Positions 6,443 through 40,000 of a stretch of DNA of 64,000 bases are shown here, in pieces. Every line of letters begins with the position of its first letter. The first letter of the stretch is position 1. The notes under the pieces are model-generated. The model had not been told where the DNA came from, did no database searches, and saw only the letters and a program-made list of their open reading frames with translations. The stretch is taken from positions 63,828,533-63,892,532 of the forward strand of contig OX485804.1 in assembly GCA_950295325.1 (NCBI GenBank). The letters run 5' to 3'. A program made the translations under genes and the position numbers. The stretch is from Polytrichum commune. Its lineage: Eukaryota > Streptophyta > Polytrichopsida > Polytrichales > Polytrichaceae.

Positions 6443-9400
6443 ATGGAGGCGTTAGATGATCCGAAGGCAGCTGCTGATGCCGCCAAGGTCTTGAAAAAAA
6501 ATTTCCAGGCGGAGGTGACGCTGCGAAAGGAAATTTTGTCATACCACGAAGAGGAGCTGAAAAGGGCTCAAACGATCCAGATTTCGGTCGACCTCGTGTT
6601 GGCGGCGAAGCGTCAGTTAGGGTTTCTGCGGACGATCGACAGCATCACGACCTTGCACCGAGGCCCGGCAGTGCCTCATGCCATTCAAAGGTTGGTTAGA
6701 TCTTCACCGCCCAAACCTTAACTGCTCAAGAATGATGTAACAACTTCGCTTTAGGCTGCAAAAATTAATTAGTAGCTAGTTTCTGACTGCAGCTGAAAAT
6801 CTTCAAATTAAGCTCTGAGGACAGGCCAGCTTCTCCAGAAAATCACTGAGGGGATTCTGGATGAATCAAGAAAAAACATTTCTTCTCTCCAAGCCTGCGG
6901 CGGTACACAAAATAAATTGATAACATTCGACTGCTCTTGATCTATCTAGCCTCCCGTAAACTACCTCCTGAGGACAGCAAACTTCTTGATGAGTAGTGTC
7001 AAAATTGTCAGAATCTCACATGACTGACGTCAGTGGTGATCGCCGATGTTCATATCCTCAGACACACATCTCGCAGCTTGATTAATCCATCAGCAGACGC
7101 AACATGGTTTGACTTTGAATGAAGCATGTGGAATCCGGAGTTTTTAATCGACGAGACCAAGCATATATAAGTCATTTCTTAAGCCGGTCGATTGTCCGGG
7201 ACTGTATCTAACATGGAACCATCAGAGTAAATTGAGTATTTAATCAATCTTGGGACGGTGAAACCTTCGGAGATGAATTGGCAGACAGGCTTGTACTTTG
7301 GTGTGCAAGCGCGCCATGCAATGATCTAGCATCTATTTGAGATCTGTATACATCTGACCGAACAAAAAAAATCCATATTTTAGATTTCTACTTGTACTCG
7401 ACGAGTAGATGAATTTTCTTACAGAATTTCGTGTACAAATTTTGTGTTGAGGATGATGATGATGAATTAAACGTGTCTCTCACATTCAACACTTTTCCAT
7501 AACTATCCCAGGTACAACAACTGCTGGATGCCAATAGCGGCGGAGGTTGCAGATCATCAGCTCGCCGATCACAGTAGCACTGCTTTGCTTCCTCCCCTGG
7601 ACGTTCAGTGGGTGTGGCATTGCCATTGTCTAAGCCCGGTGAGAAATGGCGCACAAAATTTTCCATTCCAGAGCTCCATCCCATGCATCGATCGGAAGCA
7701 CAGTCTGCAAATACTACGTAGCTGTGTACAGATAAAGGAAGGGTCTCGGAGGTAATATAACTGGATGCTGTACGTAGTAGGTGGGATTTTTGATAATATA
7801 ATTTGGTGATGACCTCAATTCATCTCCATTCTGACGAGATCCTCTTCATGTCTTACATCATCGTGATCGACATCAATTTTCTCCCTGGCAGATGGCGTAC
7901 AGGAAGTTCTGTGAATCCAAGTTCGGAAAGGTGATCAACTATCCCATCCTTCCTGACACGGAGAGTGAAGATAAAGCACGGAATGCATGCAAACGCATTT
8001 GGTGTGAACGATACAAGGATGAGCCTTTCGACATATTAGCGAACCTGGTTAGGGCTGATTCAAACCTCAACTCTGCAGCAGCAACAGAAGTTGATGATCC
8101 AGATCAGGTGTCCCCGGTAAAGGGGTTTTGGAAACAGGAGCTGGATGAGCTCGTCTCCATCATTGCGAGGCAGAGTTCTTTCTATTACCAGGTAAGTGAT
8201 CCATTAGGGCGCCAAACTCAAAACGATCCAGCAAACGCCCCGTGCAATATCCGGTGTAGCTCAGGACTTGTATCTGGAACGGTGTATTTAGAAGCAGAGA
8301 CACAATCGATCATAACATTCTTAAGGTTTGGAAGGATGCTTTTTTTCTTTTTCTTTTTTTTTCCTTCTATTCTAGGTTCAAGAATAATTTTTCAAGATGT
8401 TTATTCAACGTGCTGATTGATCAAATGCACGCATGAATGCCGAGGATAGTCAAGCTGTGGCAACTTCTCATGTGCAGACGCTATAGCTAATTAATGTCAT
8501 TTTTCGGGCATGGAGCCTTAATCTCTAATCTACCAACATTCATATAAACGACCAGTAAAAACACTTAGGTTGCAATCGGTGTATATCAGAACTGTATACC
8601 TAATCTGGAACAGTTATTTAGATGCAGCCAATACAGTTGATCATTGTGACATTTTAAAGCTTTGGAAGGGCGCCTTCTTTCTGTCCGAGAATAAAATTTC
8701 CAAGAATACTCAACGTGCTTGATTGCACGCATGAAGGCCGAGCATAGTCAAGAATAGTCTCATGTTTCGCCACCAATCTCACTGTTCGGACATGAAGCAT
8801 TCTCCTATCTACCAACATTCAATGGAAGAGGTGCGTCGGCCCTAAATGTAATCATTCTTAGGTCGTCCCATTGCCTATTAAGAATTATTCCATTTGCCCC
8901 GGAAGACTAGTACATAGGTCGGCTGCTCAAGAATGTTGTGATGAAATACATCGAACCATCCCAGAAATATACAACTAGGTCGTCTCGAAGAATTTCGAAC
9001 TTTCAAGCTGATGTTGATTGAGCAAGAAAATAAATGTGCTCCCAGGTGTCTCAGCCTTACATGTGGGAAGAAGCGTTCTTGCAAGCAGCGTTGGATCGAT
9101 ACAAGTGCTTCTTGCACATTGTTGGCAAGTCCAAGGGAGCCATCATGTGTGTGCCCACCTACGACATCGACCTTATATGGCACGCCCATCAGGTGACATT
9201 GATCACACATGGATCCCTGTCCCATGAAATATAATCGAACACTCATTAGCACTCTTATCTAACGTTGTAATTAATTCTCCCAGAATGTAATTTCACGTAC
9301 TGAGATAGAAGTAGGACATATATATAGATTGTTGTGAATTTCATTGTGATTTTGGGGGCTTTATGCAGGTGTCTCCAATTGCATATGCGAAAGATACGAT

Positions 9401-12400
9401 GACGCTGATGGGATCCGTGGTAGACCACGATGACAGCATGGAGAGAGGTCCGCACACCAAGCTTGGAGATGGGTTTGAGGACACAACTCGGCTATGGGAG
9501 AGCACTTTCGGCCAACCTTACGAAAGGGCGGGCTCCTTGTACCGAGGATCGAAGCCCGTGAATCTGCCTGCACCCCCGCACGATGACCACGACGGTGAAC
9601 AGATTGTGGAGTGGATCCCGGGAATTTTGTCCTCCGACTACCGTCTTTCCGATGTGAATGCCAAGTTTCCTTTGCTCGTTCCCAGGCGCATCGTGCAAGT
9701 GAGTGATCATGGTTCCCCTCACATTCGAACAGAAAATTCAAAGTGTTGTGATTTCCCCTCAAATTTGAACATGACATTCAATGCGTTGTGATGATTCCGC
9801 TCAAACTCATAAGGCTAGGATATCCATTGTGTTGTCATTTTCCCTCAATATCGAATTCCAGGAAGTTTATCGTGTTGTCATTTCCTCTCAAATTCGATCA
9901 GGAAATTCATGGTTTTGTTTCTCCTCACATTCGAACAGGAAAATAAAAGTGTTGTGATTTCCCTCAAATTCGAACATGAGATTTGTTGTGTCGTGGTGAT
10001 CAAACTCATTCGACCAGGATGTCCATTGTGTTGTCGTTTTCCCTCAATATCGATTTGCAGGAAGTTCATTGTGTTGTCATTTCCTCTCAAATGCGAGCAG
10101 GAGCTTCAATGTGTTTTGATTTCTTACAGCACGTTCTGGAAGAATATTCTTCACTGGAAATCTGTTGGAAGGAAGCTCCGTCACCTACGATTTCCAGTGC
10201 TGCTAACAGAGAATCGCCTAACCTGTCTCCTCTGTAATTGGTACTTGTCCATGGTTTCTGAAGTCTTCTGGAATTCTGATGTAACAATGACTGGGAATTA
10301 AATATGATGATCATGTGTAGGTATATGATGACCATACATCAAGAAGCATCGATATTCCAGGTTCCAGAGTAGTTTTTTCCAGAGTGTTATTCAGGAGTAG
10401 GTAATCTGATATAAAGGGAGTTGGTAATTCTGGCAGGTATGCATAATGATCAAAAGTGCGACCAATGTGGTCGCCGTAGCGAAGGAAAATCGTAAACTCT
10501 TTGTTCGCTTGCGAGCGCTGGAAGCTCACAAACTTCTCAAACTGGACACCCCGGTGGTGGCCTTCACCTCCGACCATCAATGGCAGAAGCTATGGCTCTT
10601 GCAATGCGAAGTGGCCACTGGCGGGGTGGTGCTGGAGCTGCGGTGCCGTGTGGCAGGATGTCTCGGGAACCGCACCAAGGTGATTGGATCGACAGTGCTC
10701 GCCTGGAACACTCTCCAAGAATCTCCCATGCTGTCGATCGACACACTCTTCACTCTGAAAGAGAAAGAAAAGGGAAGTAACCCTCTTCAGCTCCGACTTG
10801 GGGCGTCGATAACGCCTCCGGTGCAGGCGAGTTGTCTCCTCAAACGATTCTACCTATCCTGTTTCTCGCTGAATTTCAGTTCATCAATACCTTCGAAATT
10901 TTTAACTCAAAGGCCGCAAATTTTTCACTTCAAAGTACCGTGAGATAATGCAGTTCCATTCCACCATTGCATAAGGTTTAGAGCATTGAAGGTAGGATGG
11001 GAGGTCATTGATCCTAAAGTTCAATGACAACGATCTCTCCTACTCAAATTGATACAGCGAGAGGAACTTGAATTACATAGATTTGCTTAAACCTCTCCTT
11101 TGATTGAGGTGCCTGAAGTGGCTGCCGCTGAATTCCAAATCATCAACATCTCCTGAATCTGTTTGTCAGAGACCGCGCATTCATCACATCAAGGTTCAAG
11201 ATACCCTGCGAGAATGGAGTTTCACTGCATCATGATAGCATTAGGGTTAAATGCATTGGAAGGCTGGATCATTGTGAGGTCATTGATCCTAATACTTAGT
11301 GACGAGAATCTCTCCTACTCAATTTGAGATGTGAGGAAATTCTTGAATTACATAGGCTTGCTCTCCCCATGGTTTGCTCTAAATACTTACCTATTCTGTT
11401 CAGCAAAGACCAGGAGACTGTGCGAGGTTTTAATCGATTATCTGTACAAACAATGGTGGTTGGATTTCGTGCTGATGTTATGATGATGAAAATCTGAAGA
11501 GATGATTTGATGATGCCTTGAGGTTCATAATTTTTGATGATTTTTTTTGAATGTGTAGGGTCCGTACCTTCTTAAATCCGTGCCTGACCGAGTGACAGAT
11601 GACAATGGTGGAATGCTATCCAACCTGATTCTGCGTATGAACAGGTTCCAACCTCAGCGTGGGAGATGGATCACACGAACTGTGCTCAACCACATGGGCA
11701 GAGAATGCTTCGTGATTCGCGTCAGGTTGAATTCATGTGATCACCATCATCACAGTTATGACTTCTTCCAAGACAAATGTTGTGTAGTAGGAGGTGTAAG
11801 AATTTTCAGCTTTTGGATTTTAATTCGAATTTGATGTTGGTTTGTGCACACCAGGGTGGCGAAAGGAATCTGGAGGAAGAGTGGAGATAGACCAGAAGGT
11901 GTGGATTGGCACGAGCGTGTGATTGATGTATGTGAGGGTGGTTGGACATATGTGGCCGGTGCAACAGGTTATGCTCCGAGTAAGTTTCGATCTGTCTTCG
12001 AAATCCGAGCTGGCGTCCTTGAATCACATATCATCAATGATGTGTCGTCCCACATATAATTCTATCTTTCAATTGTTCTTGCAGGGCCGACGACCGTGGT
12101 CGTTTGATCGATGATGATCCTTTTCTAATTGTCGCTGCTGCTGCTGATTTGTTGACAGACAAAATTGTCGGAAGTGCAATTCCGTTTGCGGATGAGCTTG
12201 AGCATTACAAATTGAGCTGGCACCTGAGCAATGGCAGCACGCTGGTCATCTCCAGGCCCTTCCACGATGACCACGACTGGGAACAAAACCTTGAGTTCAC
12301 TCTCACTGGTTTCTCCACTAGCTTGGTAAGCTGGTGTCACGAGATTGCTTGAGACTTGCTTGAGAAATGGCTGATATCCACTCTAGGTTCCTCTGAAGTA

Positions 12401-15400
12401 CCCCAATTTAATCTAAACCAAATTTCGGAGATGTTTTACGTATACAGCGATCTCTGCTGTGTCGAATTTGTAAACTGGTTCGCTTGAGAATTGCTCGGGA
12501 AATGGCAGATTTCTGGGTTCCTCTGAAGTACCTCAAATTAATCTTAACCTAATTTCGCAGATGTTTTACATATGAAGTGAGTTCTGCTGTCTTGAATTTG
12601 TGAGCAGGTGTCAAGCAATTACTTCAGAATTGCCTGACAATCGCTTGACAATAGCAGGTTCCCGGGTTACTCTGAAGTCCCTTAACTTCAAACCTGAACC
12701 AAATTTAGAATCTAGACCTAATTTCGGAGATACTAACATATAAAATGAACTCTGCTGTCCTGAATTTGTAAGCTGATGTCAAGAGGTTGCTTGGGACTTG
12801 CTTGGGAAATGGCAGATTTCTCGATTCCTCTGAAGCACCTGAACTTCAAAGCTGATCCCAATGTAGAATCTAACCCTAGTTTCGGAGATGTTTACCAGTA
12901 CAGTGATCTCTGCTGTCTCCAATTCGTACGCTGGTGTCAAGAGATTCCTTGGAAATTGCTCGACAAATTAATTGCAGATGTTTACATGTACAATGATCTC
13001 TGCAATCTTGGATTTGTAAGGTGATGTCAAGTGGGTTGCTTGAGAATTGCCTGAGAATTGGCAGAATTCTCAATTCCTCTGAAGCACCTGAACTTCAGAC
13101 CTGATCCCAATGTAGAATTTAACCCTAGTTTCGGAGATGTTTACATGCACAGTGAATCTCTGCTGTCTCGAATTTGTAAGCTGGTGTCACGAGATTGCTT
13201 GAAAAATTGCTCGAGAATCAATTGCAGACGTTTACATGTACAATGATCTCTGCAATCTTCGATTTGTAAGGTGGTGTCAAAGTGGTTTGTTTGAGAATTT
13301 CTTGGGAAATGCCAGATTTCTTGGTTCCTCTGAAGCACCTGAACTTCAAACCTAATCCCAATGTAGAATCTAACCCTAGTTTCGGAGATGTTTTACATGT
13401 ACAGTGAATCTCTGCTGTCTTGGATTTTGTAATGTGGATAAGAATACAGAGGTCTTACGTGCATTGCAAGAGAGAATGTAGGTACTCTTGATCAATGGGA
13501 GAAGATTGGAATACGAGGTACACGATAGTACGCCTGAGGAGGAAGAGGGCTTCGTCACTCTCGTACGCTACAATGCCCAAACTCCACAAGGAAAAGCGAC
13601 CGCATTATTCAACTGGAAGGTTTCAGCTATGGAGATTCATCCCGAAGAGGATGTGGTCCTGGTCCTCCTCTTATGCACTGCCACCATGAGGTCTGTCGCC
13701 GACTTCGGAGGAAAACACCAAGGCAATGTGTTTGCTCGCCGTCGACACAAGGAGGTCCGACCAGGCCTCAAAGACTGGGGTTCTGTGGTCCTCGAACATG
13801 CCACCTCGCAATCCAACCTCGCAATGTGGTACCTCAACACCCCGCAATTCATCTACAATGCAGATGGCACCGACCGAATCCACAGCCACCCAGGCAAGCT
13901 CCGCCCAAAACTCAATTCCTCATCTTCATCCCCTCTCCTTAGCTGCTGCTGCCAACCTTCCTTCTACTCTCATCTGATCTTCCAGCCACTTTTGATGATG
14001 CAATCTTGAACCATGATTCCATTTCCCTGCTTCCGAATTCAGGCATGCGAATTTTGATTAGTATTTGTCAACCTGAAACATGTCAACCTAAAGGCTCGGT
14101 TACACTAGTACAAAGATGGTCGTGGTCGAGGACCTCCAATCAACTACAACTACAATTTTCGTCATTCACAACTGCGAATCCTTGTGGTTGTGGTCGGTGG
14201 CGGGGCAATGGGGTCGGTCTTTGAGATCGTAATCTATCATTGGTTTAGGTCTTGGGCTTGAAAGAAGATTAGAGCGATTATTATACTTGTTTGCTTAGGA
14301 TTCTAGTGTTAAAGTGGTTTCCTCCTGAACTTTCTCCTCATACCTTGGCCTTGAAGCTCTTTGGTGATGCCACATGAGCATGAACAACCACCCCAAGGGT
14401 GGTTGTGGGGGTGGTTAGTATTAACTATTCCTTTTCCATGGAAATAGAACTAAAGAAAGTACACCATGACCACGATCATGGCCACGACCACAACCACAAC
14501 CACAACCATCCCTAGTGTAAATGACCCTTAAAGATACAACATTGCATAAGTCTTATAGCCCACTTGCACATGACGAATGTCGGATGTTTCGAAATGTTAA
14601 GGACTCCAAAAGTTGGGGAGCCACCTTCTTGTGCACTTTACCGTCGGACAACCAAGAACATTGGAAGTCCGATTGCAGTGTTGTCACGGTCATCGAACGT
14701 TTTGAAATGTTGACAACTCTCAAAACACAGTAGGATGAAAGACTAAGTTACGAATCCCGGTTTGTGATTGGTGAGAACTTTATTATCCTTGTGTTTGAGT
14801 CATGACTTTCTTCCGGAATAGTTTACTTGAATGTTGGACATTTCAAAATGTTCGACATCTCCAATTCTTTTTGCACTCACACATACGGGCCTTCTTTTTG
14901 AAACATCGAATGTTCCAAAACATCTGATGTTTGACGTGTGCAAGCAGTGTATTAAGTTGACAGGTTTTGTCACTCTTGAATCCATAGCCTAGACTCGGCA
15001 AGTGACAACCATATCCCTAGTACGGATTTGGTGCCTGTCAAAATGTTCCAGTAGGCCTCCTTCATGTGAATTTGCCGTGTATGAGCATGTTTAGTTTTTG
15101 ATTCCATCGCGAATGGTTCTGAAATCATGGTTTCAAATTGAATATCAAGGTTAAGGCCTTGGCTTTTGAGTAGTCTGAGACAGGGCCTGCAAATACCAAC
15201 AATCCAGAACAACACATACTTAGGTTTAACATGTTTCATCATTCTTGCATCCATAGCCTAGACTAAAGCGACAACCATCACTCCAATAACGAATTGGTAC
15301 CTCAAAATGATCCAGCACCCCTCGTCCATGTAAATTTGTGGCCAAAAAGCACAATTAGTTTTCGATCCTTGAACGCTCAAATTTGACCGAATCGTAATAT

Positions 15401-16283: not shown

Positions 16284-16395
16284 ATCATATATGGTTGTAA
16301 TGATTCTCTCTCATGTGCTTAACTAATTAGTTTCAAGTTCTTAATTGAAGTCCATGCCATCTCTTTCATGCTCATGAACTCATGCTCATAATCTA

Positions 16396-17167
16396 AGGTA
16401 TGTAGATGTTATTTGGTTCAATATTCATTTTCTCCAAGTTCTATCAGTTAGAGTTACACAATGATAATTATGTTGCATTACCATGTCTCCAATGAAGCAT
16501 CAACAATTGGATTGAAAATTGCTCTTCCCATGCTTGAGTTATGGTTATTGGAAGAGCATTAGAAGAGGACAAGGGAGTCAAATAGGTCTCGGAGGACCCT
16601 CAAATTGGTTAGTAAGAATTAAATGCTTTCTACTAATTTGATTTCCACCCATGGACTCAGGCAACCAAGAATCTCATGAGTAGATCCCATTAGAGCGGGA
16701 AATGTAAACGGCAAGAAATCTAAATTTCTCAACCAGTTCATCTTTAACTAGTGGTTGGTTCTCCTTGTTCATTGGTTTGGTGGGGCATTCTGCATATTTG
16801 ATTAATGATTTTCTTGTCTCGATTTCATGTGTGACACGTAACATGCCACAAAGGATGAGAAAGAAAGTATAGTCAGACATTTTTTTTGGGGGGGGTTCAA
16901 ATCCACTAATAATTTCTCAAACTCGAGCCCCACTAGTATAACACTTCCTCCTCTAATGGTATGTTTGTTGATTCCTTAATTGAATACATAGATCCCAATT
17001 GTGTTGACTATTGATGTGGAGTAGAGTAGTTAATAAAATTTGAAGATGTAGTCCAATCTCTTTTCAATATGTGCCATTCAAGTGTTTGTTCTTTGATCTT
17101 CACCTTACCACACCAACTCGAATATATGTGTCTGATTAAGAAAACAACCAAATAACACCCGCATACC
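16396..17167. mobile_element. R4 element between the two convergent genes
   Basis: The left end AAGGTATGTAGATGTTATTT and the right end (reverse complement of AGGTATGCGGGTGTTATTTG) form the R4 inverted terminus. The right part, from about 16975, matches the R4 copies at 36688-37062 and 52.8-53.4 kb. At about 770 bp it is longer than the 370-bp copies. It fills most of the 1.2-kb gap between the 3' ends of the GRDP and RNase H genes. Confidence 0.65.
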
Positions 17168-17508
17168 TGATCTCTTTATCCCACTGAGAAGTGGCTTTCA
17201 TTGGAGACAGCACCAAAGAGTATTTCTGAGTAGGCAGTACAGTGATCATGGGATATGGAATAATGAAAGGGCAGACTCTGAAATGTGTGCAGCCAGGCAC
17301 GCGGTTCTTTGTACTTTGAATTCACAATCTGAATGTTTCTGCAGTCTAGAGAGATATTATTGTAAAATGTGAGATTGTCTTGATGATTCTTTCAACAATT
17401 TGGTAGTGACTTCATCACCTGATTTGTCAAGCAGTTCAAATATTTCACATATTTCAAATAAATTTTGCAAATCTAGAAAGGAAGGTGGTTTAGTAGGAGC
17501 TTCATTAA

Positions 17509-19950
17509 TTACCGTCTCAGTTGCAAGTTAGGAGAAGCCATGGATGATTTCTCTTGTGAGTACACTGCAGGCCTACTAGGGTTTTGTATGGGTGTTTGAA
17601 ACCGCGGTAGAGTTTGTAATGGAAATCCAAAATACTCATCATCTGCATCATCTGAGTCAGATTCGGACTCAATATTGCGCTGGACCAGTGCTGATGAGTT
17701 GCTCTTGGAATGAACACCTAATTTCGCAAGATATTCATCAACGGCTTGATTGGCAAGCCTGTCTGCAAGCTCATTATATTCCCTAGGAATGTGCTCCAGC
17801 CGGAAACTCTTGAAGTGTTTCACCAGACTCGTCACCTTGCGCCAATGTGGTTTGAAGCTCTCATCCCTTACTTCCCAGTGACCCATCACCTGAATCACAG
17901 GAAATTTTTAAAATAATTATTTTGAATCGGTGTGACCACAGCTGTATATAATTTCTCTCATCTCACAAATTCAACTTCGATCCAACATAACCGATTCACC
18001 TCACCGGCCAGGTTTAGGCCGGAATAATCAGAGAATGATAATAGTCTGTGAATATCAACTCATGTGTATAGTACAGAAAATAGTCTTTACTGAATCGAAT
18101 GAACTCCAGGAAATCCTTGACAACCAACAATAACCCCTCCTAACAGCCATGCATCCCTCACCAGTCACGACCCTGTGTCCTATCACCTGAATCACACGAA
18201 AAGGAAATGCTCTGAACTGGTGTCACAGATATAGTTTCTCATTTCACAGATTCATTTTCAATCAAACAAAAAACTAATGATAATAGGCTGATCTCTCATG
18301 TACACAATTGCATACAGAAAATAAATTCACTCAATCAGATGAACTCCAAGGAAGTCTTCAGGACAAAAAATTAATGACTCCACCTAGCAACAAGGCATCC
18401 CTCACTTCTCAGTCACCCGTCACCTGAATCACACGAAAAGCAATAAATGCTCTATATTGATGTCATAGGTAAATTCCAACACAGATTCACCTTCAGTCAA
18501 ACGAAAAACTGTGATAACCCATCAGATTGAAGCCGGATTTAAGGGCGTGATAGTCTGAATATCTCTAGACTACTCATGATGTGCATATAGACGAATTCTT
18601 TACTGAATCAGATGAACTGCAAGATTGTTGAGTGCCTTAGGAAAGATGTGACAACCACCAAAAGTCATCCATGCATGCATCGAATTAGCATCAACACGAA
18701 CTCAATTGGCACCCCTGACCAGAGTGGAATGCTCTGCAATAGATGATTATATTGAAGGATGATGGTCTGAACTCTCTTGACTGCTTTTGTTAATATTACA
18801 GATTTGGCAGAGGTTTTTGATCCCCCCACCTTGTCTGCGAATATTTCTACTCATGATGTGTATACAGGAAAACTCTTTACTCAATCAGATCAATTGCAAG
18901 ATCGACTGCCTTAGGAAAAAGGTTATTTGACAACCACCACCAGCCATCCATGGATGCATCGACTTGGCATCATCACGGAATGTATTAATTGCCACATCCA
19001 AAAGTCTGAGCAGAGTGGAATGCTCTGCAAAGGATGATGCCAAACTCTTTCGAATGCTTAATTTGTTATCACAACAACTTTGGCAAAGTTTTCTGATCCT
19101 CCCACCTGGTCTGTGAATATCTCTCTACTCGTGATGTGCACACAGACAAATCCTTTTCTCAATTAGATGAACTGCAAGATTGACTACCTTAGGAAAGATT
19201 TGACAACCACCAACAGCCATGCATGGAATTTACAACACGGATTAAACAAATCATGGCACCCCTCCTGAGCGAAGTGGAATGCTCTGAAGGGCGACAGATA
19301 ATGTTCAAGGATGATGATGTCAAACTCCCTTAAATGTTGTTGATGTTAGCACAACAAATTTGGCAGTGTTTTCTGATCCACCCACCTGATCTGTGAATAG
19401 AATTCTCTATTCATAATGTGCACACAGAAATCCTTTACTCAATCAGATGGAATGCAATATTGACTACCTTAGGAAAAGGTTTGACAACCACCAACAGCTA
19501 TACATGCATCGAATTGGCACCAACACGGAATCAATTGGCACGCCTGAGCAAAGCGGAATGCACTGAAGGGCAGCAGATGATGTTCAAGGATGATGATGTC
19601 AACCCTCTCTTGAATGTTTTTGATGTTATCACAAATTTAGCGGTAGAGGAGAAGGCTAGTAGGTTGGTTTCGGATCCTCGCACCTGGTTATAGACCAGCA
19701 GCGAATCGCCCTTGGCGACAAGATGTTGCACATTTAGCCACTTAGCTTTCTCCAGGCCTGCGATCAACGCCAGATACTCGGCCACATTCTGCGACACATT
19801 GCTGTCCACACAGTTCTTGATGGTGGCCACCACATGTCCGTAACTATTTTTCAGCGCTGCTCCGATCCCTGGCGGCCCCGCGTTGTTCACACGCAATGCA
19901 CCATCGAAGTACAACACCCACGGCGTCCTCGCCCTCCCTCGTACACTCAT
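17509..19950 (-). CDS. RNase H-like domain protein (plant RVT_3 type), 2 exons
   Basis: Exon 1 is 19950-19684 (89 codons) and exon 2 is 17889-17509 (126 codons plus stop), joined in phase 0. The start is the ATG at 19948-19950. The 215-residue product has an RNase H fold from residue 11 to about 140: LYFDGA (D16), NVAEYLALIAGL (E58), KGDSLLV (D82) and ELADRLANQA (D132), so the complete D-E-D-D catalytic set. After it come an acidic Ser-Asp stretch (ESESDSDDADDEYFG) and a basic Ser/Pro-rich tail. Plant single-domain proteins of this kind (PF13456) are predicted to cut RNA in RNA-DNA hybrids. Substrate and location are not known, and no targeting peptide is obvious. The donor CAG|GTGCGAG and acceptor GATTCAG|GTG are canonical. 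The 1794-bp intron is made of tandem repeats. It lies alone, convergent with the GRDP gene, and no reverse transcriptase or integrase domain is next to it, so it looks like a host gene. Confidence 0.85.
17860..18445. repeat. Tandem copies of the 3' splice-site region in the RNase H intron
   Basis: The sequence around the real acceptor (plus strand CCCAGTGACCCATCACCTGA, AG at 17891-17890) recurs as CTATCACCTGAATCACACG (AG at 18188-18187) and CCGTCACCTGAATCACACG (AG at 18425-18424). Each copy is followed by related intron sequence (TTCACAGATTCA, ATCAGATGAACTCCAAGGAA, GCATCCCTCA). The offsets are 297 and 237 bp. Confidence 0.85.
18530..19690. repeat. Four-unit tandem array carrying the 5' splice site of the RNase H gene
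   Basis: Units of about 276-298 bp repeat CTTTACTCAATCAGATGAA, ACCTTAGGAAAA, TTTGACAACCACCAACAGCC, GAGTGGAATGCTCTG and CTGATCCTCCCACCTGGTCT. The last block equals the exon 1/intron junction: donor positions (minus-strand G) are 19683 (real), 19385, 19105 and 18829. The array therefore starts at, and partly includes, the end of exon 1. Confidence 0.9.
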
Positions 19951-20245: not shown

Positions 20246-20321
20246 CGTAATCCAGGCTTCTATCGGAGCCTAACTTATGGCCCACTTTCACATGACACAC
20301 TTTTTGGAACAGTATGGCGCC

Positions 20322-20690
20322 AGGTATGCAGGTGTTATTCGGTTATTTTTCTTAATTGGACACCTATATTTGATTGGTGTGTTGTTAGGTGAGGATCAAA
20401 GAATAAATACCATATATAGAAACCACATGTTGAAAGAGATTGGACCATGTCTTCCAATTTCACTAACTACTCTATTGCACACTCAATAGTCAACACATTT
20501 GGGATCAAGACCTATGTATTCATTTAAGAAATCAACATACACTTCCGATAACTAAATCAAAGGAGGTCCAATTGTTTTTAATTGATGCTTCATTGTAGAC
20601 TTGCTAATGCAACACAAGTTTCGCCATGTAAAACTATATGGTAGAAGTTGGAGAACATGAAAAACGAACCCAGTAACACCCACACACCTT
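20322..20690. mobile_element. R4 MITE copy, about 370 bp
   Basis: The left end AGGTATGCAGGTGTTATTCG and the right end (reverse complement AAGGTGTGTGGGTGTTACTG) form inverted termini of about 25 bp. The interior matches other R4 copies (GGACACCTATATTTG, AAGAGATTGGACC). There is no coding capacity. Confidence 0.7.
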
Positions 20691-20699
20691 AATGTGTCA

Positions 20700-23150: not shown

Positions 23151-23160
23151 ACTTCTCTCG

Positions 23161-23848
23161 CAGCTCACTTGGGCGCAAAATTTTGCAGCAGGAGGATGGT
23201 GATTACCTATATATATAGAGAGAGAAAGTGACAGAAGTTAAACCAACACTAATATATAAGTAGCTGCTAATCATGGTCCGGAAATTGGCCTGGCTTCTCA
23301 TTGTTGATGTCAGGTTTTTGAGAAACTAAACTTTCATGATCAGCACAGTTCCCCAGTAAAGAGGTCATTTTTAATGTGTGTGCATGTGATAGTTTTGGAA
23401 AAATGTTGTGGCAGCTCACTTGGGCGCAAAAGTTTGCAGCAGGATAGAGATTACCTATATATGTATTGTGAAAGACGATAAACTGACACCATTTTAATAA
23501 GTAGGTGCTGATTAAGATCCAGAAATTGGCCCTGCTTCTCATTGTTAATGTCAGGTTTTTGAGAAACTAAACTTTCATGATCCAGCACTTTTTCCCAGTA
23601 TATAAAGAGGTAATTCTCGATGTGTGTGCACTTGATCATTTTGGAAAAAATCTGCAGCCGGATGACGGTGATTACCCATATATCGTGACAGAAGATAATT
23701 GTCACTGATTAAGTAGCTGCTAATGACCCAGAAATTTGGGTGTCTCGTTCTTGTCAAGATTTCAAGACACTTTCATGATCAGCACTGTTTCCCAGTAAAT
23801 AGGTTCTTGATGTGTGTGCATTCGGTAATTCTGGAAAACTCCTGCTGC
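23161..23848. repeat. Three-copy tandem repeat, periods about 250, 236 and 200 bp
   Basis: The copies start at 23161, 23412 and about 23648. Shared blocks are CAGCTCACTTGGGCGCAAAA, GATTACCTATATAT, GTCAGGTTTTTGAGAAACTA, CTTTCATGATC, CCCAGTA and GATGTGTGTGCA. The third copy is shorter and more diverged. The minus-strand frames share peptides only because the DNA is repeated. Confidence 0.9.
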
Positions 23849-24480
23849 TTGGGAAGAATTAAGCTGTTTGTATAAGGTAGATATATGGAAAACGGTGAAA
23901 ATGAGCCGATTCAGCTAGAACGAGTTGTTTTGTAGTTTTATTCCTTCTAAATAATGAATTACATCTTCCCAAAGAGGTAAGTAAGTCAAACCTCCTACTT
24001 GTACACTAGAGTCTTCCTAATTTGAGCATCAAAATATCCTATATTGCATATGAACACACACAAAACGGTTAACTCAATGGCACCCAGGAGAGATTGCAAG
24101 TGGTGTTGAAACAACACCTATATGACCAATCATTGTATCCCACCTAGCATTGCACTCTTTTCGAGCCACCACTTTACAACTAGCCATTTTGGGTCCACAC
24201 AAGAATCATTCTTCCCCTAGTTCAGTGCACCAATAGTGGTCATTCATCGTTTTAGGTTTGTCTATCCCAAAACACATGCAATGTAAGGTAGTTAGCTTGA
24301 CATGATTCACTTCAAAAGTAAGAATACTTAAACTATGCTTGAGAAAAAAGAAAATTTGAACAGTTCTTGTACGAATCAACTGTCACCAAGGTACATGAAC
24401 CCACCCATCCTCGAGTAACTTGCATTGAATGCTTCATGTTTGCCACCTACATCATTGATTTTTTAATAGTGTGGACCACA

Positions 24481-24701
24481 CTACACTAAACATGATATTA
24501 GTGTCACTTACTATTTGCAATAACACAATGCTATACCTATTAACTGTATATCTCATATTTTACCAACAAATATCAAATTGGTTGTATGGCCATTATAGAA
24601 CATCAACAACTTTACTTGGTAAAAAATTACACCAAATATAGAAAGACATAACACCATGTAACTCCAATAGTACGTGACACTAAATATCATATTTAGTGTA
24701 G
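24481..24701. mobile_element. R2 MITE copy
   Basis: The ends are inverted: TACACTAAACATGATATTAG on the left and CTAAATATCATATTTAGTGTA on the right, with TA at both outer borders. Each end is itself a near-palindrome. The subterminal TCACTTACTATTTG is also inverted. The interior matches 40544-40764 (TTGTATGGCCATTATAGAACAT against TTGTTTGGACATTATAAAACAT). Confidence 0.75.
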
Positions 24702-25079
24702 TTTTGAGCATCCACATTTTGAAATTGTTGTGGACCACAACATTTGTATACAACAAATGGTGTCATGTACTAGTGTGCACCACATGAGGCATTATGGTGT
24801 TTAAAATACATTGTAGTGTGAAGTCGATCTATGTAGAGAATCTTGTGTGTCATGTGACATCACCATTGTCATCGGATATGCATGGCACCAAACCACTTAA
24901 CATGAGATACGTGTGTTCAAAATAAGATATATTATGAGGTCAATCAATGTAAATATCTTGTCCACATGCCACGTGGCACCATAATTGTTATCGGTGGGCA
25001 TTGCATCATGCCACTTGTCATGGTCACACCTTCATTACTATGTAAATCACACCAAGCCAAGTGACACATCATACCACTT

Positions 25080-25303
25080 CACCATTTATGGTGTTTAGTG
25101 TCACTTACTATTTGAAATTACGCAATTCTATAACTTCTTGTTAATGAAATCATTTTTATTAACAAAGGCTAATTAGGTTGTTTGGACATTGCAGAACATA
25201 CATGACATGACTTAGTAAAACTATAGTACATTCTCTAAGAAAAGTCACAGCATTGAGTAGTTCCAAATAGTAAATGACACTAAATACCATAAATGGTGTT
25301 GTG
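25080..25303. mobile_element. R2 MITE copy, CACCATTTATGGT subtype
   Basis: The left CACCATTTATGGTGTTTAGT and the right copy in inverse orientation give a terminal inverted repeat of about 38 bp that continues into TGTCACTTACTATTTG. The interior GGTTGTTTGGACATTGCAGA matches the other R2 copies. Confidence 0.7.
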
Positions 25304-26196: not shown

Positions 26197-26760
26197 ATGT
26201 GCTCAATTCAAATCTCCCTCCTTGTTGTCACATTTACCTCCCATATATCACATTTTGACATTAGAATAATCTACCAAAGAATTCAAATCCATACTCGAAC
26301 GCATCACATTGTCATCATTGTCATTATTGCAATGTTGACTTTGTGCAATTCCATAATGTCACATGCTACACTAGTTCTCTATTATCAAGCATCCATGTTA
26401 ACACTACATACCTCCTTAATATCACGTGCACTTTGGTTGCCACAAGCATGATGTTAGGGAGGTTAGGGTATATTTTGAAGCTCACTACGCCTAAGGTAGA
26501 TGTGCCTAATATGGTTGCTTATCTTAATCAAACACCTATATTTGAGTGGTATGTGGGTAGGTGTGGTCCAAGAATAGATACTAGAAAGACAAGTGTTTAA
26601 AGAAGATTGGACCTCGTGTTCAAAAGATGATTGCTATTCTAGGTTCAATAGTTAAGATAATTGGGAGGGACCTATATGAGCACTTAGTGAGCATGAGAAC
26701 CTTTACTTTGAATATGAATAAGATATTCAAATGAGCTTTGAAATTATGTGGAAATTGGCA
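26197..26760. repeat. R4-related sequence without clear boundaries
   Basis: The part from about 26480 (AAGGTAGATGTGCC, then CAAACACCTATATTTGAGTG and AAGAAGATTGGACC) matches the reverse complement of 30190-30372 and 34460-34612. These share the interior of R4 but carry a different end sequence. No gene is seen. Confidence 0.5.
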
Positions 26761-29335: not shown

Positions 29336-32280
29336 TGATTGCAATTACTCTAATTATATCCATTCTTTCCTAAGTTGATGTTGCATTATGTGTGGGAGCT
29401 AAAGGGGGGTGACTTAGAAAATTTTAGTTGGAATGGTGTGTCCAAAGATATAGTGTAGTTTATTAATTGTACCTAAAATTATAAAATGTTTCAGAGGTAA
29501 TATGTGATGGATAAAATATACCATATTGGATTATAGCTAATATAAGGTCCTACATAACATATCCAATTTAGATAAGATACCCCATGTGGGATAAATTATC
29601 TTCATGTTGATCACGGACCATCATTAAGATGTGTGTTGTTTGTGCCATTGAGTGTGTAATGGTAACATTTGTGAAATCTAAGTTATTGAAGTTTAGAATT
29701 TTGGGTCGTCAATACAAAAGCAATTACCATTTGAAACTCAATGTTTCATGGTGTCATTCCTTGATAACTTAATGTTAGATTTTGACATAAGTAACTTTTA
29801 AAGTGAAAATTCATTTCCATTATGACATTTAGCTTGATACATTGGGATACTTGAGATGATAATTTTACATTTTAGTATGCAAGGGCAAGATATTATTGAG
29901 CATACTAATGCCAAGTATCATTTGTGTAAACTTTAGTCAACTTGTAGTGCATTGTGTTACATAGGGATACATCTCATAACACTATTGAACATTCTCATGC
30001 CAAGAAATTAGCAAACGCACTTGAACGCCAAGTGTCATGAAGTGACACTAATGGGGAAGTTGTTGATCATTAATGTAACCTAGCATATGCCTTAAATAGG
30101 GTAAGTGGCATTATTACACATGTGACACTAAATACCATAATTAAAACACTTCTAAAGTGGTTGATTTGCCAATAATTTGATAGTGTTAAATGGTCATTTA
30201 GATCCCCTTGAATATGTTGACTATTGAGTCTAGATCATGTTTGTAGCATGAAGTCCTATAGCTTTCAAACACATGTCTTTTTGGTACATATTCTAGGAAT
30301 TACACACCTAACCACATACCACGCAAATATAGGTGTCCAAGATAGATTGGTCAGCGAATTAGGCACATCTACCTTAAATAGTAGTTAGATTTTGATTTGT
30401 AAATGAATATACCAATGAATTAATGACATGTCTTTATGTAAATGTACTAACTACACTAAATAGTCCTATTATTGTGGGCCACATTAATTATCTAGAGCCC
30501 ATGCTAATTTTCATAATGAGAATCAACGTGTGCCACCTTACTTTTCAACCCACACTAAATTTCTAGTAGAAAATTAGTGTGGGCCACCATAATTGTTTTT
30601 CTAGAAAATTAGAATGGGACATTCTTTTATTTTGCGTTACTTCTGTCCTATAACTAATATTCAGTGTGTTGGTTGGAAGTCTTCACAAAGACTTGGGGGA
30701 AACCCAGGGTCTTGGACCCACGTGAATCCCAACTTGACTAGAAAATTAGTCTGGCCCACACTAATTGTTTTGCACGCTAAGTTTTCACCCATACTAATAG
30801 GACTATTTAGTGTAGCTAGGAATGTCAAATTTCATTCAGGCAGTCGAACACAAGGTAATATTGGTTGTAAGTTCTAACTGTATTCACCATCATCAACATT
30901 GATTTTATGTCACTCCTTGTGACCTTTGAAGAGTGAAGGCATTTGTTAACCAGATCTCTCAGTGGTCCCCAAAGAGAGAGAGTTTTTAGGGTTTGGGTCA
31001 CTCTGGACACACCTTGAGAAGGTTGCAGATTAAAATATGAAGAGGTCATGAATGTTAGGCCAGGAAAGGAGCTCTTTGGAATTCGATCGCCTCGAATCGA
31101 GAACTTAGGTTCCATGCCATGGTTTTGAGATAGGTGAAACTAAGTCAGATTCGATTGAGAACGTAGTTGTTTGAGAGGACTCCTTGTGATGTATATTCAC
31201 AACGCATGTATGTATACTCTGCAGTGGCAGACATGCAATAAATCAGAGGATCTTCAAGTCAGTAAGTGTTTGTGTGTATAATCTTGACTGAACTATATAT
31301 ACCTTCGATCCATGTTCACATCTCATTCTCGATAGTTACCACACCTCTTCCAACCTTTTGGAATGAGAAGTGGTTATTGCTTCAAAGACAAATTCTTGAG
31401 CAGAAAACCAGTTGACAATCCTTTGACCACATCTAGTAAGTAATTGTACACATATAACAACGTCCTCATACATAGAAGTCTTTATGCAAATGTACCAACC
31501 TCCACGAATGTCAAGTATAAACCAGGCTCTCGATGAACACCATGTTGATCTGGTTCTGAGTATATTCACCATCAACAGCATGATTTTTTTCTCACTTCTT
31601 GTGAACTTTGAAGGCTGTTTGAAGTGCTCACTACATTGCAAATTGACTGATGCAGAAATTATGGGAATTATCTACCGGACGTCCTAGCTAATAGACTAAC
31701 TTTCACATACACATACAGAGCTAGGGAATCGTGTTGGATATGGAAACTCGTCCAATGTGAAGGTGAAAGACGCAGTGAATTATATTATATTCTGTAAATG
31801 GTTATTTGTAGATTATTCAACTCCGAAAATAGAATCATCAAAGACTCTAAATTAACATGTTGAAGTCAAATTGGAACAAATCGGCCCTCAATCTTGTAGG
31901 GGACTCTTTTATTTTATCACCACCCCTTATTCACAGTGGATGAGTTTACACAGATGCCACAAATTCCAAGCCCCTCCCCCCCCAAAAAAACACACACACA
32001 CACTCATAGAGGTATCTTACACAAGGCAGCTTGATAATCTCAATGTTGCCAGTTCGGTAATGCTCCATTGAAAAATCAGCAATCAATTAGCCACTTCTTG
32101 CGCTCTTCAATACCTTCAATAATACGCGCTAGCTGTACTGTACAATCCACACTGACTCATGGAAACCCCCAGTAACACATCCACCATATCCTAGAATAAC
32201 ACTTCCACTTTTATTCTCTAAATTGTCAAGGAGGCCTATCTATTAACTCAGGCATTGAAACCTAGTATACATGCCCTACA
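29336..32280. other. Repeat-derived intergenic sequence, no gene seen
   Basis: Contains R4/R5-like fragments (30190-30372, CACATCTACCTTAAATAGTAG end) and isolated R2-like words (GTGACACTAAATACCATAA near 30122). A direct similarity between 30880-31000 and 31550-31620 (TATTCACCATCA, CTTGTGA, CTTTGAAG) extends to 34845-34905 and 35225-35345. The open frames are not conserved between these copies. Confidence 0.45.
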
Positions 32281-33094: not shown

Positions 33095-33312
33095 AAGGTA
33101 TGTAGGCCCTATGTGGTCACCCTTCTTAATTGAACACCTACACTTAATGGTGTATGGCAAGGTTTGTTGGAAAGGGGGTCAGTCAAAATGGACACCAAAT
33201 CACATGTGCTATGATGCAATTGGATTAGGTTATGTGGTCATAATATTTAAACCATTCTAAGTTCAATAGTGAATACAATTGAGAGGACCTATGTGATCAC
33301 TCAAAAAGATTG
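33095..33312. repeat. R4-related repeat, truncated
   Basis: Starts AAGGTATGTAGGCCCTATGTGG and ends GGACCTATGTGATCACTCAAA. It matches 49440-49637, which has the same beginning and end but a diverged middle. Confidence 0.6.
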
Positions 33313-34216: not shown

Positions 34217-34612
34217 GGGCTAACGTAGATGGATCTTAAATGGTTACTTTTCTTTTACTAGCCTCCTTTTCCTAGGATAAGAAACACGAGATTAGCACAA
34301 GATGGTTAACAAATCCAAAATGAGGCCGTAGCCACTTTCCTCATAATTTCCAAAGCTCATATGAGTATGTTATTCAAATGTTAAATGAAGTGAAGATTCT
34401 CGTGCTCATTATTTGGTCGCATAGGTTCCCCCAATAATTATATTCACTGTTGACTCTAGAAGGATTATCATATTCTGAACACGTAGTCCAATCTCTTTTA
34501 GAACACATGTCTTTCATGCAATTGTTCTTGGAGCCACACCTGAACACTTACCACTCAAATTTAGGTGTCCAATTAAGATACATAAACCGAATTCGGCACA
34601 TCTACCTCATAT
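34217..34612. repeat. R5 copy followed by R4-interior fragment
   Basis: 34217-34412 matches 28408-28600. 34460-34612 (GTAGTCCAATCTCTTTTAGA, TTTAGGTGTCCAATTAAGATA, GGCACATCTACCT) matches 30225-30372 and the 3' half of the R4 copy at 36688-37062. Confidence 0.65.
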
Positions 34613-35630
34613 GTTCAGACTAAGTTTATGTTAGCATATATGCAGCAAACGCAAAGCCATATGTCCATCCTTCATGGCAGGCGGTGTAAGGAAGGCAGAT
34701 TTTTGACACAAAGCAATGAGCGTCACCCCATTGAAGCTGAATAACGTTATGATGGCCCTTATTTATGTAAATGTACTAACTAACTATATAGGAATGTGGA
34801 GTTTAAACAAGGCTGCAGGTCAGATTCTGGTTCTAAGTATATTCACCATCATTAGCAATAAATTCACCTCACCTCTTGTCAACTTTGAAGGCCTCTTGAA
34901 CTGCTTAATTACTGCTTCAAAGAGTTGTAACTGACTGGATCGGGATCAGTAACTGCTTTGTACCCATCTCTCTTGAGCGGAATTAATAGATTTAAATAAC
35001 AGAAGAAAAAACACACAACGATCCTCTGAAGGTCTTGAGCGACATCTACGCTGCAGTAATTCGGAATTTGGAAATAAATATAACAACGTCTTCATGACCA
35101 TCTTCACTCTTTATGTTTATGTACAGTACATCCATGTACTAAATAAGTACCTGGGAATGTGAAGTCTAGCCCAGGCAGGCAGGCAGTCGATGCTCGAGCG
35201 CCAGGGAATTAATCACGCTTCTAAGTATATTCACCATGATTCATCAGCATTAAATTTTTATCTCGCCCCAGCTTGTGACGAGTCACGACAACGGGCTCGC
35301 TCCAACTTTGAAGGCCTTTCAACCTTTGGAACTTTGAAGAGTTACTGACTGACTCAAGGACAGGAGAAGTAGTACTAAGGTACTGAACAAAAATCTAGGT
35401 GAGAGTCGCGGTACTATGCGCCTTGAGGCGAAGAGTAAGAGAATCCAGTGGGAGATCCTAAACCCATGTTCTCAGCCTGGTGCTGGCCTTCAGTGTGCTT
35501 CCCCTTTTAAACTTTAGTCGTTCAAGCTCTTAACCTGCTCCAAGGCCGACTTCACATTATTCTTCTCCTTATTATTATTAATACTATTATTATTATTGTG
35601 GCTCCAGCACAGTCTCCAACTTGTCCTGGT

Positions 35631-36005: not shown

Positions 36006-36687
36006 GCATGCCTTGCTCCTCCGGCAGGTGATATATTGCACAGGTGGGGTTTTAAGTTCGACTGTCCTCGAATCATCAGAAACTGGAATCATTACCAATC
36101 ACCTTCACACATTTGAGGAATTCATGAAGGAGTAGCTAGCTAGGAGGAGTGGCGGGGTATGGATCATGCCCGGCTCTTCAGGCCCTGTGAGGCCTGGAGG
36201 GAGCCTGTAATATCTCCAGTAATCAAAGCCGTGCATTATGTTGACGGGGTACGAAGAAGCGCACATCACACAAAGGAATCTGGCAACGGAGGAGATAAGA
36301 TGCATCATTTGGTGTCATGAATTGGAAGCCATGTGTGTACGGGGCAGCCGAGGTTTAAATGGCTCCCACTCATGAGCCGAATGCAAGTAGGATCGAGTGG
36401 GTACTGCCCGAATTCAATTAATTTACGGTTTAATGGATGTGGAAGCCAATAGAATAAAACAAATAAAATGAAAGCGATGTTGGGGTTTCGTTTATGAAGC
36501 CAATAGACATATGCACCATAGCAGTATCAAGCATGGTGTGTATTCGTTCTGTGGGTTCTGAGAATATATAACCATGGGATGCTAGGAGCTCGGTTTTAAT
36601 TTGAGTCCCCTTGCGCAAGGCTGGAGTGTTCCACGGTTCAAGGTGCACAAAACGAACGCACATTGTTTAGTGATGTTATGACTATGT

Positions 36688-37062
36688 AAGGTGTATTGTG
36701 GGTGTTTTTCGGTTCGTTTTTATTGAACTCTCTATGATCTGCTATTTCATATCGCATCTATGTCTTGAAAATTGTGGTGCATTAGCTCATCTTATGATTG
36801 AAAGTCGGATTTTTTCCTATTTTAGTTGTGGTTATTGGAAGTGCATGTTTGTTGATTTTTTTTAACTAATCAATACATAGGTGCTTCCAATTGTGTTCGA
36901 TGTTGTGTGTAAAGGAGGTGATAAGATTTGACGACGTAGTAGTCCAATCTCTTTTAAACGTGTGTCTTGATGATGTTTGTTCTTTGGCCCTCACCTAACC
37001 ACGCATTGATGAAATGTAGGTGTCTGATTAAGAAACGTAACCAAATGACACTCAGATACCTT
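36688..37062. mobile_element. R4 MITE copy, about 375 bp
   Basis: The left AAGGTGTATTGTGGGTGTTT and the right end (reverse complement AAGGTATCTGAGTGTCATTT) form the inverted termini. The interior has GTAGTCCAATCTCTTTTAAA and TTTGTTCTTTGGCCCTCACC, shared with 53230-53300 and 17040-17110. Confidence 0.75.
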
Positions 37063-40000
37063 ATGGCATGTGGATGTTTGCTTTCAACTCTAATCTATGA
37101 AGTAGGTTTTGGCTGCAAACCTCCATCTTGAATTGGATGTGCCCTCAAATAATCGTAACCAAAGAAAACAAAAACCATCCTTGAAACCAAGTTTCCTAAC
37201 CTCAGGCACATGCTAAGGTCAAATTTTGTTTACCTTCACCCACTAAACTTAGTTTGAAAACGACGTTTTTGAACATGTGTGATCTCATCCTCCCCCCAAT
37301 GCGGAGTCAAAATAAGGCTAATCCACTAGCTAGATGTATAGGAGTAGATGTGTGACAAGCATTACACAAAGGAATTTGATAGAGAAGATTTGAAGGTGTA
37401 TCATTTGACATGAAATAGGAACGATGTGTACAATATATGCTTGAATGGCACTAACACTAGTGAATTTGGGAGGTACACAAATAAAACGACATCATTTTGG
37501 GAGCAAGCATAGTCAAGTATACAAAAAAAGGTGCCCCGGTATACTAAAAGCATACTTTTTTTTGGTCAAACACCTAAAAGTGTTGTTTAAATTAGATGTT
37601 TTCTTCATGGCACCCTCTATTGTTGTGTTAGGTACTCACATATAGAATGTCAAGATGAGATCTCTAAAACTTATCATTTAAAGTATTGCTCAAATGATAA
37701 TGGCTAAATATGGTTTTGGATGTAGGATTCATGACCTTAAATGTTTTAAAGTTGGATTATTTTCATGTTCCTTGCATTCATTGTAAACTTGAGGGCAGCA
37801 TCACAAAATATTTAAAGATATAAATTTATCATATTTAAAAAAATCAGACAACTACATATTCAATATACCTACTTGCACACTACTTGCATTGTCTTTTAAA
37901 ATTTGTAGAATTTTGTTGATTTTTTTCTCAACACAAATTTCTTGGCTTTGTAGATGAATTTGTTTCTTAGATGTTTATGATTTTTTCTTTCACAAAATTC
38001 AAAGATAATATACAGTTTTGAATCACTTTCACTTAAACCTTTGTAGGGTAATGGAGTTGTGTACTTGACTATACTTGCACCTTTTTAAAATCTAAAATGC
38101 CAAAATACTTATCAAATCTGGACATAGAAGTTCATCAACATGGAGTCAAAGGCCAATTCCGTGTACATGTGGGTATACAACAACCTTCACAAATGATTGT
38201 TAGAAATCTTTGATGTTGAAGTAGTCTAAGTCTTTTCCTTCGAAAAAATAAAAAATAAAAAATATTGATGTTCTAGAATCAACAGGATTGTGAGCCCGTT
38301 ATCTTTATGCTAGCCATTTTCTTGTAAAATTCTATAGGGTAGTCTTAGGAATGATTATTTTCTCAAGGAATGAATCTCCAAGGCCAAGGGGCCCTCATTC
38401 TAGGAATAGATGCCAAACCTAGTCTTGGAGCAGCTCATATTACTCCTCAGCCTATTGTTGCCTATCTAGGACATATAGGTGCCACACTTTAGATTCAATT
38501 GGAAAGTGTAGGGGGAAAAAAAGTTGTGAATCTTGAATCAATAATATTCATAAAGATACCTTTCAAGAAGTGGTCCATCCCATGGGTCAAACCTACAAAT
38601 GCATAATACCATTATTTGCAAGGCCAAAGGTTCAAAGAGACCCCACTCTTGAGCTATAGATGCTTGTTGTGACTATACCTAGCCAATTTGATTGATGGTT
38701 GTGATAGATCATAAACTAAATTCTTTCACTAGAAGAAAACCCGGCCATTCCAACCCGTCTTTGCAACACCAAAAACATTGCCACCACTTAGTTGGCAGAC
38801 CCCTTTCAACATGCTATGTTCTATTGCTATGGTCATTTACGGGGCTAGGTCATTACAGGTTGCACAACACATGAAAAAAATAAAGTCAACCAAATATGAA
38901 TGTAGTGTAGGGTTGGAAGTGCACATGCTTACTCATACCCTGAGCTAAGGCAAAAGAACTACTAAAATTTGATAAGAGAGAGAGAGAGAGAGCACTAAAT
39001 CGCCACCTTCCCAATGCACATGTTTACGCAGACATGATGAATCCTTGGCTTGGGATTGATGGCGTCTACATAAACTCATCCATCATACGTATAAAGGGAC
39101 TCCAGCCAAAAGAACCGCTACAAAATTGAGGGCTGACTCATTCTCATTTGACACCACTATACTAATTCGGACTCTTCGACTCTATTTCTGGAATCAAACC
39201 GCCTTTAAATGACCATTTAGGAGTTACAACATAGATCGATGCGTTCTCACCTTCGCGATGGATGAGTTTACATAGGCACCACAAACCCCTAGCCTCATGT
39301 CCATCTTACATATCTGACCTTGAATCCATTACCTTATCATTGTCATCACCAATTCTCCTTGGTCCAATTGGGCCGCTCCAATTTGTACCTGGTAGGTAAC
39401 TTTTGGCAACTCATTGCCTTACATTCAATGACTTACAAAACATTCATAGACAACCAGCTGGCTGTAAGATTGCAAGTTGGCATCATGTGCCCAAGAATCT
39501 CCACACGTAGTACATATGAAGCTCATCAACAACGTCCCTCGTGGTAACACTTGGGGTCTAATCTTGGTGAATGTCGGCCACGTCGCCTCTACTAGAAGAG
39601 AAGAGGCAATCACACTCATAGCTAACTAAAATTGGATCGAGGCCCAATCCAAGTTGCTTGAGTTGTATGTAGGATCTACCAATAGAATTGCATATGCAAC
39701 ATGATTATGATCATGTCAATATAGATGTGTCATTTAGATTCTCATATTTTATCCTCGCTCTCTCTCCTTAAAGTCAACATCAAAAGCTTATGTGATTGAA
39801 GTTTAATCAATTTTTGATAAATCGAACCTCAAATGATCAATAGGGATTCGCATAGGATTCGCATCTATTCCATGCGATTTAGATGAATTGAGAGTATACG
39901 TATGGATCAACCCATAGAAGTGAGGTTTTGATAGGAACTCAGTTAGTTCAATGTGAGATGGAATCTGGAATTGTTTACAGTTCTTATTTCAATCCTTATA

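Follow-up and report, generated by a model that had tools for sequence, protein, structure and literature searches.

Diverged tandem copies of both splice sites within the single intron of an RNase HI-like gene in Polytrichum commune

Introduction

The lengthening of introns is often explained by transposon insertion. The locus described here raises the question of how an intron comes to hold several copies of both of its own splice sites, and how the right pair is then chosen among them. It lies in the window, a 64,000-nucleotide stretch of Polytrichum commune DNA that we analysed as a whole and on which all positions below are counted, and consists of a minus-strand RNase H gene and its plus-strand neighbour, a GRDP gene. 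According to an original prediction made from the DNA letters, the RNase H intron is composed of two arrays that grew inward from its two exon boundaries, through a process shared with intron 9 of GRDP. Here we ask which copies are present, how they relate to one another and to the rest of the window, and what they may mean for splicing.

Results

An intact gene with a single intron

Joining positions 19950-19684 to 17889-17509 yields an open reading frame of 215 amino acids, which matches the Pfam families RVT_3 (1.8e-24) and RNase_H (2.4e-6) over residues 11-139 and thus spans the junction after residue 89; its top alignment to the PDB (4e19, 7.8e-18) is ungapped at the exon junction. The putative catalytic residues, which we take from the DEDD motif to be D16, E58, D82 and D132, are all present, the last of them in exon 2, and the gene is predicted to encode an RNase HI-like protein. 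As both the reading frame and the catalytic motif residues are intact, we rejected the possibility of a pseudogene. A viral-contig scan with the RNase H protein returned 14 pattern matches and no relative.

Four donor-like and three acceptor-like junctions (D0-D3 and A0-A2, where D0 and A0 are the real sites) allow 12 combinations, of which D0-A0 alone gives a full-length RNase H. The remaining 11 truncate the protein to 93, 132 or 139 amino acids, and other exon borders were rejected on this basis. Together with the Pfam and PDB matches that cross the junction of the joined frame, this bears out the exon boundaries on which the original prediction was built.

Layout of the intronic array

Donor junctions, given as the first intron base, lie at 19683 (D0), 19385 (D1), 19105 (D2) and 18829 (D3), with spacings of 298, 280 and 276 nt, exactly where they had been placed. 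Acceptor junctions, given as the first exon-like base, lie at 17889 (A0), 18186 (A1) and 18423 (A2), with spacings of 297 and 237 nt; these sites, too, had been located correctly, although the positions assigned to them (17891, 18188 and 18425) are those of the A of the AG, two bases above the first exon-like base. Self-comparison and unit alignment give the intron the order X0C0 X1C1 X2C2 X3C3-Y2 C4Y1 C5Y0, that is, (XC)(XC)(XC)(XCY)(CY)(CY), with all units oriented head to tail. In this notation, X begins at a donor, C denotes the roughly 125-nt core common to the units, and Y closes with an acceptor followed by some 28 nt of exon 2 (Table 1). The array, its unit order, borders and divergence, and the consequences of each junction for the reading frame can be read directly from the DNA.

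Table 1. Positions of the RNase HI gene, of the units in its intron and of the duplicated introns in the neighbouring GRDP gene. A slash marks the exon-intron junction.
Feature	Positions	Strand	Description
RNase HI exon 1	19684..19950	-	ATG at 19950; 3' end ...AACCAG
RNase HI exon 2	17509..17889	-	begins GTGATGGGTCAC; stop at 17509
RNase HI sole intron	17890..19683	-	1,794 nt; diverged tandem array
Unit X0C0	19389..19683	-	begins at real donor D0 (CAG/GTGCGA)
Unit X1C1	19109..19388	-	donor copy D1 (CAG/GTGGGT), intron base 19385
Unit X2C2	18833..19108	-	donor copy D2 (CAG/GTGGGA), 19105
Hub block D3-A2 (X3 C3 Y2)	18424..18829	-	406 nt; one each of X, C and Y
Exon 2-start copy (28 nt) behind A2	18396..18423	-	24/28 identical to real exon
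Unit C4 Y1	18187..18395	-	ends in acceptor copy A1
Diverged exon 2-start copy behind A1	18152..18186	-	7-nt insertion; alone not significant
Unit C5 Y0	17890..18151	-	ends in real acceptor A0
GRDP intron 3	8192..9045	+	one tandem duplication
GRDP intron 5	9699..10436	+	tandem duplications
GRDP intron 6	10827..11558	+	one tandem duplication
GRDP intron 9	12326..13481	+	eight donor-proximal units, real + seven copies

The self-comparison chain of the intron reaches an E of 2e-157. Between positions -20 and +60, the real donor scores 14, 17 and 13 against its three copies, values that 0, 0 and 1 of 1000 dinucleotide shuffles reach, and the copies score 34-44 against each other (0/1000); between -60 and +28 of the acceptor, all three pairs stand at 0/1000. 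Chance resemblance can thus be set aside, and formal alignment confirms what had been proposed, namely that both splice sites are copied within the single intron, the donor three times and the acceptor twice. Identity is 72-77% among donor units and 66.5-70% among acceptor units, and because all units differ by 23-34%, an assembly error was rejected as the source of the array.

The core ties the two sides together. It is 80-84% identical among C0-C3, 69% between C4 and C5, and 58-66% in cross pairs, and in each of the eight cross pairs between C0-C3 and C4/C5 no shuffle out of 1000 matched the real score. Because this core is common to both, the donor and acceptor arrays are not independent: two differently bounded arrays are real, as predicted, but not as separate structures.

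Borders of the copied segments

On the donor side, the exon portion of the copies is marginal. Exon 1 was copied for at most about 5 nt (ACCAG), and the 40 nt of exon 1 before D0 bear no resemblance to those before each donor copy (594, 568 and 294 of 1000 shuffles as good). On the acceptor side, the head-to-tail copies carry the junction and about 28 nt of exon 2, to GGGATG. The exon 2-start copy behind A2 resembles the real exon beyond all of 1000 shuffles and the copy behind A1 at 7/1000; taken alone, the A1 copy is not significant against the real exon (91/1000). The sequences joined at the breakpoints have two bases (AC) in common on the donor side and four (GATG) on the acceptor side, which would be compatible with end-joining repair or slippage, although such matches are too short to prove much.

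Relationships among the units

If the arrays had grown stepwise inward from the exon boundaries, as originally proposed, unit age should follow position. The unit trees contain no such gradient. In the donor-unit tree the innermost D2 and D3 group together (bootstrap 80), with D0 and D1 unresolved; the core tree splits C4 and C5 from C0-C3 (bootstrap 100), with values of 51-53 inside; and the acceptor units have roughly equal mutual distances. An age order from the boundary inward was rejected, as neither the donor-unit nor the core tree supports it. Distances are larger among the acceptor units than among the donor units, which makes the acceptor side appear the older of the two. We infer that the hub block D3-A2 gives the simplest picture of the ancestral intron, because X, C and Y each occur once there.

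Strength of the copies and of the real sites

As crude stand-ins for a trained splice-site model, we used pairing energies with the 5' end of U1 and pyrimidine counts. Among the 124 GT sites of the intron, the three that pair best are D1 (-10.9), D2 (-10.3) and D3 (-9.3), with D0 (-6.8) in twelfth place. Among 640 GT sites in 10 kb of non-genic DNA, a pairing of -9.3 or better occurs at 0.5% and one of -6.8 or better at 1.7%, so that the real donor still stands well above ordinary GT sites; nor is it odd for the locus, as values for the nine donors of GRDP run from -5.1 to -11.6. On the acceptor side, the pyrimidine count over 17 positions is 13 for A1, 12 for A2 and 9 for A0, and 3, 6 and 24 of 47 YAG sites, respectively, are as good or better. 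Both real RNase H sites are thus outscored by their copies on these crude measures. The copies of the exon 2 start also pair better with U1 (-8.2 and -8.1) than D0 does.

With copies predicted to be stronger than the real sites, the cell has to pass over these decoys or else splice by way of them. The former is the reading that we consider likely: an ordinary tandem duplication whose decoys are tolerated, and a variant of the known duplications across exon-intron borders. The latter could still yield the right mRNA, since all seven junctions, including all five copied ones, read AG/GT. The copies might then serve as stepping stones, used recursively (D0 joined first to A2, the GT regenerated there to A1, and finally to A0) or inside out (D3-A2 first), with the same correct mRNA as the product, and a wrong joint between any inner donor and A0, or between D0 and any inner acceptor, would leave an AG/GT and could be spliced again. 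We regard this use of the copies as unlikely. The features that speak for it also weigh against tolerated decoys: pure decoys would be expected to decay or to be counter-selected, yet AG/GT is kept at five of five copied junctions, D0 pairs with U1 less well than D1-D3, which are the best three of the 124 donors, and A0 has fewer pyrimidines than A1 and A2. For stepping stones there is also the U1 pairing of the exon 2-start copies, which surpasses that of D0, and AGGT sites of dual specificity have been described in humans and linked to tandem repeats (PMC10809524). Against stepping stones, AGGT is not rare in this intron (12 occurrences, with 8.0 expected from base composition), and the pyrimidine tracts that go with the donor-copy AGs are poor (6-9 of 17).

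Conservation of the copied sites was weighed in the same way. When the real sites are included, 37 of 277 four-column windows are invariant in the donor units and 14 of 169 in the acceptor units, a joint value of about 0.011 for AGGT, though the real sites are constrained anyway; for the copies alone (60/253 in D1-D3 and 40/143 in A1-A2) it is about 0.07. The junction windows of the donor copies are unexceptional, with 56/306, 16/298 and 37/298 windows as good or better. For the acceptor copies the corresponding counts are 19/244, 29/236 and 157/236 (67%), or 9/194, 7/186 and 22/186 with the real acceptor added. Neither window conservation nor four-column invariance makes selection on the copied sites convincing.

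An extension of the stepping-stone reading, in which the intron would be self-similar and error-correcting because its AG/GT copies, used in almost any order, converge on the correct mRNA, strikes us as quite improbable. If it were true, an intron could take in copies of its own splice sites and lengthen at little expense, recursive splice sites would arise naturally from duplication, and duplication would be a main origin of long introns in this genome. The D3-A2 block is complete and has the potential to act as a nested intron (stwintron).

The strong copies may instead be spliced unproductively and so reduce the amount of RNase H made, as their use, if not followed by re-splicing, would truncate the protein before the last catalytic Asp. 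That 11 of the 12 combinations truncate it at 93-139 amino acids and that the copies score above the real sites on crude measures would agree with such a role, but truncation is expected from almost any cryptic site and extra conservation of the copies is not convincing, so that we consider it very unlikely.

Tandem duplication in the neighbouring gene

The plus-strand neighbour matches PF07173, PF25334 and PF25335 and was modelled with nine introns; the end of its last exon (13990) is approximate. Its intron 9, for which a process shared with the RNase H intron had been proposed, does contain seven internal copies of its own donor-proximal sequence, but that idea proved too narrow, as introns 3, 5 and 6 and non-genic stretches hold tandem duplications as well. 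The tandem duplications of introns 3, 5 and 6 hold no clear splice-site copies. In intron 9 the copies have U1 pairing energies of -0.7 to -4.8, all weaker than the real donor (-8.0), which is the reverse of the RNase H intron. No tandem duplication was found in GRDP intron 1 (821 nt) or in the four introns shorter than 260 nt (2, 4, 7 and 8).

Some features of this gene are recorded here in their own right. GT occurs in all eight donor-like units of intron 9, where 4 of 103 two-column windows are invariant, a count biased by the GT-holding motif with which the units were found. Counted from the donor, the arrays of introns 3, 5, 6 and 9 start at +51, +1, +40 and -3 and that of RNase H at about -5; the GRDP arrays end 225, 313, 197 and 45 nt short of the acceptor, the RNase H array being the exception. 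Intron 6 has an apparent GC donor (CAG/GCGAGT), and at intron 8 (11980-12084) the frame slips with obvious splice sites, which may reflect a sequence error, a frameshift or an unusual site.

An origin of the units from a mobile or RNA-templated element, whether introner-like or intron RNA copied back, is highly improbable. The arrays of RNase H, GRDP intron 9 and GRDP intron 5 do start close to the exon-intron border, but those of GRDP introns 3 and 6 start 51 and 40 nt inside, the RNase H units are arranged head to tail, and the acceptor units include about 28 nt of exon 2, which is absent from excised intron RNA. A search of the rest of the 64-kb window with the RNase H intron gave no match at E 0.05 and no dispersed copies, and a mobile-element origin was rejected.

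Tandem duplication across the window

Across two genes in one window, with genes defined as open reading frames with a Pfam match, local direct repeats (offset at most 1000) account for 64% of intron bases (4301/6758) and for 40/3232 exon bases. Outside the two genes they account for 6.5% (3524/54010), although intergenic DNA may differ because of the dispersed repeats in it. Two of 1280 rotations of the repeat map, the unrotated one counted, are as extreme, and five Markov-resampled windows gave no hits. At an author-chosen cut-off of at least 40% coverage, five of six introns longer than 700 nt stand against 2 of 52 non-genic 1-kb windows (Fisher p = 2.7e-5). Here, 'outside the genes' means outside the two recognised genes: the window lists 68 open reading frames of at least 90 amino acids, part of which were scanned, and Pfam at 0.01 matched none of 30 further frames and four non-GRDP frames. 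Scans for Rfam families (gathering threshold) and for tRNAs found nothing.

Diverged local tandem duplications outside both genes lie at 14957-15366, 23160-23848, 24479-25302, 45149-46147, 49034-49444 and 52615-53115. The duplication process is therefore not limited to introns, and splice-site copying is one outcome of a broader tendency to tandem duplication. Both these stretches and the GRDP introns that lack duplications count against the reading with tolerated decoys. Separately, the RNase H gene lies between two oppositely oriented copies of a dispersed repeat family (16383-17171 and 20321-20694), with further matching stretches near 26494-26686, 30211-30359, 33096-33307, 34441-34615, 36687-37064 and 52615-53360.

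Discussion

In this work, we analysed an intron that repeated tandem duplication, with both splice sites copied inward, appears to have lengthened from about 400 to 1,794 bases. Under the reading that we favour, tandem duplication with tolerated decoys, an ancestral RNase H intron of perhaps 400 nt with the structure X-C-Y would have been lengthened by duplications of about 240-300 nt at the DNA level. Those on the 5' side would have taken the core along with the donor and no more than about 5 nt of exon 1 (X-C), and those on the 3' side the core together with the acceptor and some 28 nt of exon 2 (C-Y), perhaps through end-joining repair or slippage and in an order of rounds that we can only infer. 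Coding constraint would hold the outermost copies, D0 and A0, as the true splice sites, which is why every donor copy would lie upstream of every acceptor copy and all of them would be intronic. The cell would then join D0 to A0 productively in vivo and tolerate the copies as decoys, perhaps using them at a low level to give truncated products without the last catalytic Asp. Because all donors precede all acceptors, excisions between inner donors and acceptors would spare the outer pair.

Several known systems share parts of this picture. Tandem duplication has been put forward as a model of intron gain (PMC3443670, PMC2891723), and in the potato RdRp gene a duplication across an intron-exon border is described, with RNA reads, as having produced a new spliced intron and an inserted exon piece (PMC4974935). 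As in RNase H, the duplicated potato segment runs from the 3' part of an intron through the acceptor into the following exon, giving an extra acceptor and exon piece; in RNase H, by contrast, the copies lie inside one intron, involve both of its ends and reflect several rounds. Such cases of intron gain (PMC3443670, PMC4974935) also have AG/GT junction copies one repeat unit apart, but the RNase H intron existed beforehand and was lengthened, with no evident new intron. In human UBC, a tandem array of AG/GT sites that may act as donor or acceptor is reported (PMC10809524); its repeats are coding and its sites are used, whereas the RNase H repeats are intronic and their junctions, in contrast to those of both UBC and potato RdRp, are candidate splice sites.

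For the stwintronisation of Lipomyces, donor duplications of 4-7 nt have been proposed, with splicing that the authors report as confirmed experimentally (PMC7138796). There, as potentially in the 406-nt D3-A2 block, a duplicated donor can give rise to a nested intron; the RNase H units are far longer, however, at about 280 nt, and their nested splicing is a potential. In rice, natural insertions of 10-1000 bp include tandem duplications, like those of RNase H (PMC7407515), and rice tandem duplications have been attributed to patch-mediated repair of double-strand breaks (Vaughn and Bennetzen 2014, cited in PMC7407515); the description given there draws no tie to introns or splice sites.

Two aspects of the locus are unusual. 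Several rounds of copying have affected both ends of one intron with no new exon or intron in evidence, and local tandem duplication accounts for most of the intron sequence in a pair of neighbouring, unrelated genes. In the literature searched, which leaves most subscription journals outside it, we found no report of one intron with both donor and acceptor copied inward in arrays.

The RNase H intron thus offers a direct test of how the spliceosome chooses the outer pair of sites among copies that are predicted to be stronger, and of whether duplicated AG/GT junctions become recursive splice sites. If the pattern holds genome-wide, tandem duplication would be a specific process by which introns grow and by which stepping-stone splice sites arise.
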